Assembly (NCBI GenBank): GCA_016234355.1
Contig: JACRFC010000036.1
Coordinates: forward strand, 1 to 33,970
Source of the DNA: Ignavibacteriales bacterium
GTDB lineage: Bacteria > Bacteroidota > Ignavibacteria > Ignavibacteriales > Melioribacteraceae
DNA: 33,970 nucleotides
Reading direction: 5' to 3'
Part shown: positions 29,843-33,970 of the stretch, in pieces
Layout: the number at the start of each line of letters is the position of its first letter
Position numbering within the stretch: the stretch's first letter is position 1
Translations under genes and position numbers: made by a program
The notes under the pieces: generated by a model
What the model saw: the letters and a program-made list of their open reading frames with translations, nothing else
Told to the model about the DNA's origin: nothing
Database searches by the model: none

Positions 29843-30104
29843 GTTAATATCTCCTTGAATTGTAGATTGGTTTAATTGAAACTATTACAAATCAACTTTC
29901 AAAAGCAATCTTAATTTATAAAAAGATACTCTTTTATTTCTACCAATTTTATCTATACAATCTTCCCTTTCTTTCGCTAATTTCTTAAAGATAAATTAAA
30001 GTAAATGCGTTGAATATACGGACGTTAACCGAAAGATTTTGCTTTATGTTAGTAGGATTATATTATATATTAAACCCGTAAAGCAGTTTAAGATGTTTTT
30101 GTAA

Positions 30105-31154
30105 ATGCAAAATCAACCAGATAAAAATCAAACGGGATTGTTTGAAGTATTTCGGCAAGAACTCAGATTAAGGAATTACAGTTACAAAACAATCAAATCT
30201 TATACAAGTTGTTTAAGAAACTTTACCAGTTATTTCCGTCCGCAGCATCCCCGCCAAATAAATGAAAACGATATTAAAAAGTATTTACTTCATCTTGCAG
30301 ATTCAAAACATCTTTCCTCTTCAACTATAAATCAGCATTTCAACGCATTGCGGTTTCTCTATGTAGATTTATATAAATCACCATTTAGAATCGGTACAAT
30401 TCCAAGGCCTAAAAAAGAAAAGAAATTACCGGATGTTCTGAATGAGGAAGAAGTGGTGAGAATTTTTAACGCGGTATCGAATTTAAAACACCGAACAATG
30501 TTGATGCTTGCCTATGCAAGCGGATTGCGGGTGAGTGAGGTTGTGAGTTTGAAGGTAGAAGACTTTGATATTGATCGTAACATGATTCATATTCGTGGGG
30601 CGAAAGGAAAGAAAGACCGTTATACATTACTGCCGGTATCACTCAAGGAAACACTGCACAGATACTGGAAGGAATACAATCTTGGAAAATCCGGCTGGTT
30701 ATTTCCAGGTGCAAAACCGAATTATCATTTAGCCGCACAAAGTATACAACATGTGTTTGAGCGTTCGGTTCGGCAAGCAGGAATTACAAAACCTGTTTCC
30801 ATGCACACATTGAGGCATTCATTTGCAACACACCTTTTGGAACATGGTACTGATTTACGGTATATTCAGGAATTGCTCGGTCACGAAAGTTCAAAGACGA
30901 CAGAAATTTACACCATGAGATATTATGTATATGTTTTCCAGAGTAAATATTTACCCGGTTGGATAATGACATTGAAGAATGGAGTGAAAAATAAAGACCA
31001 AATATCCAACGGGGTGAATAAAGGAATTTTATCTCACGGGGTAGATACTCACGTAAGTAAGCAAATCATTGGAAAAATTAAAAGCCCTCTGGATTTTATC
31101 GTAAAAGAGATAAATTCAGGGAAATATTTAGGAAAATTTAAATTAATTGAATAA
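30105..31154 (+). CDS. Tyrosine recombinase (XerC/D-like, similar to integron-integrase relatives) with 45-aa in-frame insertion near C-terminus
   Basis: LAYASGLRVSEVVSLKVEDFD (Arg), HTLRHSFATHLLEHGTDLRYIQELLGHESSKTTEIYT (HxxR, H, Tyr), followed after the insertion by THVSKQIIGKIKSPLDF. Confidence 0.92.
   Translation: MQNQPDKNQTGLFEVFRQELRLRNYSYKTIKSYTSCLRNFTSYFRPQHPRQINENDIKKYLLHLADSKHLSSSTINQHFNALRFLYVDLYKSPFRIGTIPRPKKEKKLPDVLNEEEVVRIFNAVSNLKHRTMLMLAYASGLRVSEVVSLKVEDFDIDRNMIHIRGAKGKKDRYTLLPVSLKETLHRYWKEYNLGKSGWLFPGAKPNYHLAAQSIQHVFERSVRQAGITKPVSMHTLRHSFATHLLEHGTDLRYIQELLGHESSKTTEIYTMRYYVYVFQSKYLPGWIMTLKNGVKNKDQISNGVNKGILSHGVDTHVSKQIIGKIKSPLDFIVKEINSGKYLGKFKLIE
30912..31046 (+). repeat. 135-bp palindromic in-frame insertion inside the recombinase ORF
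   Basis: Interrupts EIY|THVSKQIIGKIKSPLD. Inner arms TATTTACCCGGTTGGATA (30948-30965) / TATCCAACGGGGTGAATA (31003-31020), 16/18 complementary; outer arms CCATGAGATA (30913-30922) / TATCTCACGG (31030-31039), 9/10. Confidence 0.7.
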
Positions 31155-31168
31155 TAAACTAAAAGAAA

Positions 31169-31192
31169 TAACAATGACATATGTCGTTGTTA
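31169..31192. other. Near-perfect 24-bp palindrome at recombinase/cassette junction; candidate attI or degenerate attachment site
   Basis: TAACAATGACATATGTCGTTGTTA (one mismatched pair), 7 bp before GTTATGT cassette boundary. Confidence 0.45.
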
Positions 31193-31199
31193 CATATAG

Positions 31200-32183
31200 T
31201 TATGTGCAACGCAACTTGCGAATGAGTAAGGCCGCACGGCCAAGGACAGCTATCATGCGACTTCCTACTCTGACTTTCCTCGTGCTTGCTTTCCTGCACA
31301 CCGCGAACGGTCAAGAACCCCAGCGACTTTCGGGGCCTGATATTTCTCCGGCGGTGTGGGGAGTTCTTGAGTTACCCCATGCTCCTGGACCTCACGCGGG
31401 TGTGATCATTCTTCACGGATCATTCGGCTGGCGGCCTACGTACGCTCAATTCGCAAGAGCACTCGCAGACTCTGGGTTCGTTGCCCTCGCAATCAACTAT
31501 TTTGCAGAGACTGGTCGTGACACCGTCCCGGAACAACGACTCCAAATGCGCCCACTGTGGCAGGCGGCAATCCGCAGTGCGGCGGGTTATCTTCGCGCAC
31601 AACCGTTCGTCATTTCTGATAGTCTGGGATTGGTGGGTTTTTCCCGAGGGGCGTTTCTCGCTGTCTCAGTGGCTTCTTCCATCCCAGGGATAAAGGCCGT
31701 TGTCGATTACTTCGGTGGAATCGATACCAGCAGGCAGTCGCTTGAAGTTCAGGTTCGAGACTTCCCGCCTCTCCTTATCCTTCATGGCAATGCAGACACC
31801 ATCGTACCAGTATCACGCGCACATCAGCTGAAACAAGCAGTCATCGCTCACGGGGGTGAAGTCGAAATGTACACCTATCCTGGTGCACATCACGCATTCA
31901 ACGCGACTTTCAGTCCGAGCTACTCAGAGACAGCAGCCCTAGATTCTTTCAAACGCACGATTGAATTTCTGAGGAGGCGATTGTCAAAGGTGAACTGACA
32001 CGTGCGGCCTTACACCGAGCAACAGTTGCGCTGCGCATAACAAGCGTAAGCACGACACTCGCTCATTTGATATGGCAATGTGGAACCTCGGTTTAAAAGA
32101 TAGTTGTTCTCGTTCCACCGTTTTGCTCACGAGAAATTTGTCTTTTGATAGTTCGCAAAACGGCGGCGTTGTTTGCCGAGACG
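31200..32183 (+). mobile_element. Integron-type gene cassette 1
   Basis: Starts after G|TTATGT and ends at G|TTAGCC. The first 39 bases (31199-31237) are complementary to the stretch ending at the attC R'' box (32002-32041), including an exact 12-bp GTAAGGCCGCAC/GTGCGGCCTTAC. GC-rich relative to flanks. Confidence 0.7.
31255..31998 (+). CDS. Exported dienelactone hydrolase-family alpha/beta hydrolase
   Basis: MRLPTLTFLVLAFLHTANGQ signal; GVIILHGSFGW, LGLVGFSRGAFLA nucleophile elbow (Ser), HGNADTIVPV (Asp), YPGAHHAFN (His). ORF track start at 31147 lies outside the cassette. Confidence 0.85.
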   Translation: MRLPTLTFLVLAFLHTANGQEPQRLSGPDISPAVWGVLELPHAPGPHAGVIILHGSFGWRPTYAQFARALADSGFVALAINYFAETGRDTVPEQRLQMRPLWQAAIRSAAGYLRAQPFVISDSLGLVGFSRGAFLAVSVASSIPGIKAVVDYFGGIDTSRQSLEVQVRDFPPLLILHGNADTIVPVSRAHQLKQAVIAHGGEVEMYTYPGAHHAFNATFSPSYSETAALDSFKRTIEFLRRRLSKVN

Positions 32184-32189
32184 TTAGCC
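32035..32189 (+). other. attC-like recombination site of cassette 1
   Basis: R''-like GCATAAC (32035) to R'-like GTTAGCC (32183); internal GTGGAAC (32080-32086)/GTTCCAC (32112-32118) stem; shares CTCGCTCATTTG and GAGAAATTTGTCTTTTGATAG-like blocks with the site at 33729. Confidence 0.7.
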
Positions 32190-32245
32190 GCAATGCCAAG
32201 CTTAAATAACTTTCAACCTTTTTTCATAACTAAAGGAGTGTTCAT

Positions 32246-33694
32246 ATGAAATCACTATCATATTTTCTTCTGATTGCGATGGCTATCTTCGTCACGAGTT
32301 GGACTCAAGCGCAGCCGACTGGGCAGCTAAGTCTCTTCAGGCTCGTAAAGTCGGTTCAGGTGACGCCCGCCGGCAACCTCCTGGGCGGCGAGTTCGTCCG
32401 CATCGGCTACGTGCCCAGCAGGAACAGTATTGTCGTCACCTTCAAAGCGAAGCTTGACAAGGGGGAGGGGGGCTGTACCAACGTCCCTGGCTATAGCTTC
32501 GCCTATGGCTATGCCTACACGGAATACACCACGGACATGGTGGAGACCAACAAGGGCGTCATCACCTGTCAGGTGGGAGTTGACGTCGGGGGACTCTTTC
32601 TCGGTGACGACTTCTATTACGCAATGGCGAATTGTGTAAAGCCCGGAATCGGCAAATGCGATGTGGATGGATGGCAACTAGCCAAGTACAATGCAGTCAC
32701 GTGGGCGAGCCTGGATAGCACCTTCACCTATCCCCTCGCCACCGGGCAGGTCGCTGCCGACCCGATGCTCGCCTACGTGAACGGGAAGATCGACATCAGC
32801 TCTGTTATCGTGGGCGATCCGCCGCAGCTGGGTCCTTTTGTGAGCTACCCGTCCCACCACAATTTCTTCACAACCGACCTGAAGTTCGACAGCAACCGAA
32901 TCCTAAATGAAAAGGGGGGCGGCGCCCTCTCATCGCTCGTTGTCGTCGGCGACACAATCAATATGATCGCAGGCACCGCGATACTCGGAGACATGATTGT
33001 TATCCGGTACGATAAGAGTTGGAACCATCTCAGCACAGACACGCTCAAGAAGAAATCGGGGTGCCCAGAAGGCGCGGCATTCGACGGCAGCCGGTTCTAC
33101 GTCGCGTACCTCGATGTGCCCTGTACGACCTTCCCGTGTCCCGATAACGTGCGTCTGGCCGCTTTCGACAGGAACTGGAATCTCCTGGACGACATCGCGG
33201 TTACGAGCTTCAGTTCCTCAGACAAGAAGCAGCCGAACCGGCCTACGCTTGCCCTGCGGAACGGCCGTCTCTACGTGGCCTATGACCAAACCGAGAACGA
33301 GACATTCAATCCGCCTATCCCTCTGGACAGCGCCGACCTTCAGGTACACGTGAAGGTCTACGAGTTGACTCCTGCAACTGGAATTGTGTCGCCTGGTGGC
33401 CAATCAATTTTCCCCGATCAATTGCAACTTGAGCAGAATTATCCGAATCCTTTCAATCCCTCAACGACCATTGAGTACCAACTTCCATCACGGGCATACA
33501 TTAACATCTCTATCTACAATTCCGTCGGTCAACTTGTACGTGTTCTTTATTCAGGTGAGTCTTCAGCTGGGAATCATTCTATTGTTTGGGATTCTCGAGA
33601 CGACAGTGGCCGTTCGGTTGCAACTGGGACATACTTTTATCAAGTCAAGGTTGGCGATGCTGTCCAAACTAAGAAGGCCTTACTAATCAAATGA
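32246..33694 (+). CDS. Secreted propeller-like protein of unknown function with T9SS C-terminal sorting domain
   Basis: Signal peptide ...VTSWTQAQ; C-terminus LEQNYPNPFNPSTTIEYQLPSRAYINISIYNSVGQLVRVL...ATGTYFYQVKVGDAVQTKKALLIK; ORF preceded by aaggag. Confidence 0.8.
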   Translation: MKSLSYFLLIAMAIFVTSWTQAQPTGQLSLFRLVKSVQVTPAGNLLGGEFVRIGYVPSRNSIVVTFKAKLDKGEGGCTNVPGYSFAYGYAYTEYTTDMVETNKGVITCQVGVDVGGLFLGDDFYYAMANCVKPGIGKCDVDGWQLAKYNAVTWASLDSTFTYPLATGQVAADPMLAYVNGKIDISSVIVGDPPQLGPFVSYPSHHNFFTTDLKFDSNRILNEKGGGALSSLVVVGDTINMIAGTAILGDMIVIRYDKSWNHLSTDTLKKKSGCPEGAAFDGSRFYVAYLDVPCTTFPCPDNVRLAAFDRNWNLLDDIAVTSFSSSDKKQPNRPTLALRNGRLYVAYDQTENETFNPPIPLDSADLQVHVKVYELTPATGIVSPGGQSIFPDQLQLEQNYPNPFNPSTTIEYQLPSRAYINISIYNSVGQLVRVLYSGESSAGNHSIVWDSRDDSGRSVATGTYFYQVKVGDAVQTKKALLIK

Positions 33695-33728
33695 TTCTAA
33701 TCTTTTCTCATCTATCGCTTGGCACTGC

Positions 33729-33840
33729 GGCTAACAACACGCATTACGAGGCTCGCTCATTTGGTAAATATGAAAATTAAAGTGCTCGCTCCATTTGTTT
33801 TGCCGCAGAGAATTTGTCATTTAATAGCGACGTGTTGCGT
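33729..33840 (+). other. attC-like recombination site of cassette 2
   Basis: GGCTAAC R''-like; CAACACG/CGTGTTG L-box pair; R'-like GTTGCGT at 33834; blocks shared with the 32035 site. Alternative right end GTAACCG at 33852. Confidence 0.6.
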
Positions 33841-33970
33841 CAAAATAAAAGGTAACCGAAGCGATATTATAGGAAGTATGTGTTGATAATAAAGTTAACC
33901 GATTGTTAAAGAGATAAATCTGGAGTAATAATAATTGTTTCTTTCTTTTTTTGCTACTTTTTTTCTTTCT

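Follow-up and report, generated by a model that had tools for sequence, protein, structure and literature searches.

A probable patch-less reverse integron, with its cassettes behind the recombinase gene, in a member of the Ignavibacteriales

A 33,970-base stretch of Ignavibacteriales DNA, here called the window, very probably carries a reverse integron of a patch-less type. The window is the entire contig C172 of a host genome that is 72% complete and consists of 235 contigs. Towards its end a tyrosine recombinase gene is followed by an attI-like site and two gene cassettes, all on one strand (Table 1). The locus is assigned to a patch-less type because its layout is integron-like but its recombinase lacks the patch of the canonical integron integrases (IntI). 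The layout recurs, with other cassettes, in dozens of relatives. Behind a patch-less, Xer/IntI-like recombinase gene they have an attI-like site and a row of cassettes; every cassette contains a single attC-type site, and the 5' arm of this site pairs with the start of the same cassette. The original prediction, made from the letters of the window, was of a reverse or non-canonical integron in an Ignavibacteria-like host. The nearest named relative supports the host, and the 3' position of attI, the same-strand cassettes and the two attC sites bear out the integron. What it did not include is that the window copy is interrupted and may be dead.

Table 1. Features of the integron-like locus at the end of the window
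Feature	Position	Strand	Description
Inserted DNA	29984..33970	+	left edge 29983/29984, right edge past contig end
Tyrosine recombinase, patch-less reverse-integron group	30105..31154	+	349 aa, open frame, interrupted by 135-bp insert
GIY-YIG element remnant, 135-bp in-frame	30911..31045	+	terminal repeat ATCTCACGGGGT, starts inside catalytic Tyr codon (30909-30911)
attI-like site	31155..31205	+	palindrome AACAATGACATATGTCGTTGTTA then ATAG|TTATGT
Cassette 1	31200..32183	+	boundary to boundary
Cassette 1 gene, dienelactone-hydrolase-family protein	31258..31998	+	Pfam DLH PF01738, E 3.1e-31
attC 1	32035..32189	+	R'' GCATAAC ... R' GTTAGCC; model R1 64.7 bits, E 2.5e-14; weak pairing in the L box
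Cassette 2	32184..33838 (3' end approximate)	+	19-nt terminal inverted repeat 32183-32201 / 33717-33735, A.C at position 11
Cassette 2 gene, secreted protein with type IX secretion sorting tail	32246..33694	+	TIGR04183 38.2 bits (cut-off 23); Pfam FlgD_ig and Por_Secre_tail
attC 2	33729..33850	+	R'' GGCTAAC, R' GTT lost (CGTGTTGCGTCAAAATAAAA); model R1 38.6 bits, E 9e-8

The recombinase gene was found where it had been predicted, and all the catalytic residues of its product are there (R142, H234, R237, H260 and Y269); the insert within it had been overlooked. The only NCBIfam model that the protein matches above cut-off is NF040815 (240 bits, cut-off 220). The integron integrase model TIGR02249 scores it at 228 bits and six of its relatives at 223-242 bits, all under the curated cut-off of 265. 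When the proteins are aligned with the canonical IntI of the class, 40 columns that only the canonical proteins occupy are missing in the window and reverse-type recombinases, and 39 of these fall in the two blocks that constitute the IntI patch, or I2 domain. Every canonical IntI of the class has the patch columns, and no reverse-type recombinase does. The same gap appears in the comparison with the IntI4 structure 2a3v, where 26 residues separate the matched blocks in the window recombinase versus 66 in IntI4. The AlphaFold model of the window recombinase (mean pLDDT 80) has a core of high confidence and an uninformative insert region; its first fold match is 2a3v and the next is XerA. Judged by its sequence, the window recombinase is not a canonical IntI, the patch being absent and the TIGR02249 cut-off not reached. 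In the available text of a report on integron-like simple tyrosine recombinases (PMC8138268), the IntI insertion is described as not fully conserved, and no arrays, attI or attC are described for those recombinases.

A search of the whole class found relatives of the recombinase in 72 of 391 genomes, and canonical IntI, defined by TIGR02249 over cut-off, in 70 of the 391. Among the weaker relatives are XerA-like proteins, most of which have no array. Canonical IntI and patch-less reverse integrons occur together in four genomes (G195, G132, G080 and G189). In the trees canonical IntI form one long-branched clade (support 100/100) and the XerA-like controls another; a single reverse-type clade and a paraphyletic reverse type are not separated (31% of bootstraps).

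Directly behind the recombinase gene the window has, at the sequence level, the G|TT boundary that an attI site should provide between recombinase and first cassette. It reads G|TTATGT, with its G at 31199, 45 bases past the recombinase stop codon; cassette 2 starts at G|TTAGCC (32183), and both starts are as originally claimed. Short inverted repeats and G|TTRNNY lie roughly 25-100 bases past the recombinase stop codon in most relative loci, many of whose contigs end soon after. The homology of two relatives, L033 and L034, to the window breaks at G|TT (window 31202, L033 1310). L033 comes from Ignavibacteria bacterium RIFOXYB12, its recombinase DNA is 93% identical to that of the window, and past G|TT it continues with another cassette, which holds a SnoaL-like gene and has its own attC. 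Different cassettes at the same boundary, which the original prediction expected of related genomes, are found in L033, L034 and others; this variation of gene content at one locus is seen across relatives, not within one species. The contrary outcome, that the two cassette genes are fixed and syntenic in relatives, is not what was found: at E<=1e-30, none of the other 78 genomes searched in the family (79 with the host's own) contains a relative of the cassette-1 gene. The cassettes are also GC-rich, as had been noticed, with 0.54 in the cassette-1 gene and 0.57 in the body of the cassette-2 gene versus 0.36 in the recombinase gene and 0.35 in the first 30 kb. The cassette-2 gene itself is mixed; its body has 57% GC and its type IX sorting tail 44%, as if the tail had been joined to a foreign gene.

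Two strict scans for R''/R' duplexes missed the attC sites of the window, and a covariance model was used instead. The model, R1, was built from 11 attC sites of other genomes, with the window excluded, and finds both attC sites in the 34 kb of the window (Table 1); its next best match scores 12.9 bits. A second model, R2, built from canonical attC sites of few lineages and read on the complementary strand, finds canonical arrays and gave nothing convincing on the window. A search against Rfam gave zero matches. A failure of the attC model at 32035 and 33729, named beforehand as evidence against an integron, did not occur, and each of the two plus-strand reading frames is followed by an attC-like site as described. 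The last site, placed near 33834 by the original prediction, is real, but its exact end is uncertain because its R' GTT is lost. The window thus has a recombinase gene beside a cassette array and attC sites with R''/R' boxes and L''/L' pairing, the L pairing of attC 1 being weak. The top strands of the two window sites, when folded alone, have no excess stability (z 0.03 each); this result carries no information, since the outer arm is part of the cassette next to it.

R1 gave 88 matches in 42 relative loci, or 86 after duplicate loci were removed. All 86 lie 3' of the recombinase gene and on its strand, none being 5' and none opposite. They are spread over 24 loci, with arrays of up to 13 sites; the loci without matches mostly end within about 240 nt. 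It could be supposed that such cassettes are served by a canonical IntI encoded at another place in the genome, the adjoining recombinase being a bystander and the array a CALIN beside an Xer-like gene. Canonical IntI do occur in the class, at the frequency given above, and in 4 of the 22 array-bearing genomes. However, the other 18 have none over cut-off, which makes a canonical IntI in trans unlikely in general. The uniform position and orientation of the 86 sites, the conserved attI-like end directly behind the recombinase gene, and the failure of R1 to find a single such site in 20 canonical IntI loci also argue against a bystander, and this explanation is judged improbable.

The patch-less recombinases resemble the Xer systems in several respects. 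XerA and XerC-XerD have no patch either, they share the NF040815 match, and XerA is the second fold match. Xer, however, acts on a single chromosomal dif site, whereas reverse-type genes precede cassette arrays, and in the 17 XerA-like control loci R1 found no more than 2 sites. Two loci of this more distant control group have one reverse-type attC each (L029:3312-3492, plus strand; L024:620-764, minus strand).

The attC sites of the reverse type have a design of their own. In 52 consecutive cassettes, the start of the cassette was compared with the complement of its own end. Positions 1-10 match in 71-100% of the cassettes; the value drops to 10% at position 11 and returns to 63-85% over positions 12-17. 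In the canonical cassettes (n=nine, three loci) position 11 is paired in 100%. The reverse-type R arm therefore consists of 10 paired bases, an A.C mismatch at position 11, and a stretch in which pairing resumes. In cassette 1 of the window, the start forms 10 pairs (one a wobble) with the stretch that ends in its own R'', followed by A.C at 11 and 7 further pairs. A scan blind to position 11 found the arm signature in 16 of 26 loci of the class, with 0.38 expected from shuffles. In a phylum-wide sample of relatives with 45-54% identity it was found in 9 of 14 loci, with 0.2 expected, and seven of the nine belong to other classes. Position 11 is A.C in 24 of the 25 loci carrying the signature, and in both window cassettes. 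The deeper relatives (L184-L198, most of them from the phylum's other classes) share the arm signature, but the interiors of their attC sites are of another sequence type, which R1 misses. The L stem differs as well. Of 19 canonical sites, 17 have a one-base bulge after no more than 6 bp. Of 71 reverse-type sites, 48 run without interruption for 9-13 bp, and 11 have a one-base left bulge first. Extrahelical bases, a mark of canonical attC, are absent in most reverse-type sites.

Two further candidate differences were rejected. A long R arm is not unique to the reverse type, since in canonical sites the arm is likewise paired over about 13 bp, and without a break; the difference in the arm is the mismatch at 11 with pairing beyond it. 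Nor is the spacer asymmetry swapped: the extrahelical C lies on the other strand, and both attC types have a short spacer 5' and a long one 3'. Canonical integrons of the class (the TIGR02249 loci L105-L154) share with the reverse type G|TT, the R''/R' boxes, the unequal spacer, the tyrosine recombinase and cassettes of about 0.2-2 kb. They differ in having the patch, and in that a single extrahelical C (a G when read on the bottom strand) interrupts their attC after 6 bp. In L152, the canonical locus for which the strand was worked out, the array is divergent and lies on the 5' side of the gene.

In canonical systems the extrahelical bases set the choice of strand, and without them attC x attC recombination fails (PMC2727003); they are recognised by the I2 domain (PMC4792948). 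That patch and bulge have been lost together is a correlation, seen in a single phylum, and its meaning is inferred. The proposed mechanism is as follows. The attC of an excised cassette would fold as a single-strand hairpin with two arms of roughly 11 bp and a short asymmetric spacer, and this hairpin would resemble a dif-type duplex. The A.C mismatch and the unequal spacer may mark the strand in place of the extrahelical bases, and the patch-less recombinase would join the folded attC to attI at G|TT. A partial parallel is the attP hairpin of CTXphi, which is used by the host XerCD (PMC4792948): it too is a single strand that folds to imitate a duplex core site; it has no extrahelical bases, and no I2 domain takes part. 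CTXphi differs in that a phage hijacks the host Xer, rather than an array having its own recombinase and attI.

Four sister species, whose neighbour protein is 93-95% identical to that of the window, align with it up to 29983/29984 and then run into another gene (L169-L172). From these alignments the array is an insertion that the four sister species lack. In the host genome the gene that follows the insertion point in the sister species, a C1-family peptidase, is on contig C14 (L181), and synteny suggests that C14 adjoins the window. The window contig stops at 33970, so the array may extend further. On C14 the peptidase gene is preceded by a PemK toxin cassette (310-926), whose two ends carry a reverse-type arm signature containing two wobble pairs and A.C at 11, and which is probably the far end of the window array. 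Between the two lies a second copy of the 51-bp left flank (window 29933-29983, C14 1029-1079, 86% identity). A simple cassette insertion would not generate such a flanking direct repeat. Direct repeats of this kind occur at island integration sites, and the locus might accordingly be read as a genomic island integrated by an Xer-like recombinase, with repeats that resemble attC by chance and no integron. The E values of the two attC matches, the terminal repeats of both cassettes and the long arrays of the relatives leave this reading with very little probability. A third reverse-type attC of the host genome lies beside a HicAB pair at C111:629-757, minus strand (locus L156, model R1 40.1 bits), and no recombinase was found in the 2.3 kb around it. 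The 3' end of the recombinase gene has a 29-nt similarity to 33902-33930, which is too short to be given weight.

A patch-less reverse integron remains the preferred reading of the locus, and it is compatible with loss of function in the window copy. The 135 extra bases sit between the Tyr codon and THVSKQ, end in ATCTCACGGGGTAGA, and are missing at that place in the L033 and L034 homologues. A shorter GIY-YIG remnant occupies the same codon in the L075 recombinase gene, and full elements interrupt recombinase genes elsewhere (L033:181-458 and L087:2079-2364); the reading frame of the L033 element matches Pfam GIY-YIG. The element, with terminal repeats ACCCCGTGAGAT/ATCTCACGGGGT, is thus present in recombinase genes of four genomes, twice at the catalytic Tyr codon, and no clear target duplication was found in the four. 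It is possibly a homing-type mobile gene aimed at reverse-integron recombinases.

On balance the window copy is slightly more likely than not to be a fossil, its integrase having been inactivated when the GIY-YIG element inserted and its cassettes frozen ever since. The remnant lies directly behind the catalytic Tyr and parts it from the C-terminal helix, and XerA that has lost its C-terminal alpha-N helix cannot recombine (PMC3646895). The attC sites also give an impression of decay, the L stem of attC 1 (-7.3 kcal/mol) being among the three weakest of 71 and attC 2 having lost its R' GTT. Against this, the frame is open because the insert is a multiple of three without a stop, the catalytic residues are intact, and the modelled core is of high confidence, with the insert uninformative. 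Taken together, the parting of the Tyr from the helix and the decay of the attC sites make it more likely that the window copy is impaired than that it is active.

A reversed arrangement is known from Treponema denticola (PMC3607928, PMC7691350), where intI is transcribed towards attI, which lies 3' of the integrase gene, and the cassettes of the long chromosomal arrays point in the same direction. The comparison with Treponema in the original prediction holds for this layout; it is incomplete in that the patch is absent from the window type and the attC design differs. Treponema intI is treated as a canonical IntI with a 1266-bp gene (PMC7691350) and is set apart by that description. Compared with it, the window-type recombinase is shorter and patch-less, and its attC arm has the A.C mismatch.

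Integrons are present in Ignavibacteriae (PMC9024848), and no description of a patch-less integron with arrays was found in the open-access literature. Cassette systems of Bacteroidota may be undercounted, because tools that require the IntI domain are expected to call such arrays integrase-less. Recombination of folded attC is held to require the IntI-specific domain, whose origin has been described as a chicken-and-egg paradox (PMC4792948). It is a tentative suggestion, with the weight still against it, that patch-less reverse integrons form a phylum-wide second lineage of integrons, in which attC is a dif-like hairpin and the A.C mismatch and unequal spacer replace the extrahelical bases. 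Such a lineage may preserve a stage before the I2 domain, a missing intermediate on the question of whether domain or attC came first. Natural arrays that combine a patch-less recombinase with mostly bulge-less attC sites would show that cassette systems are possible without the domain.
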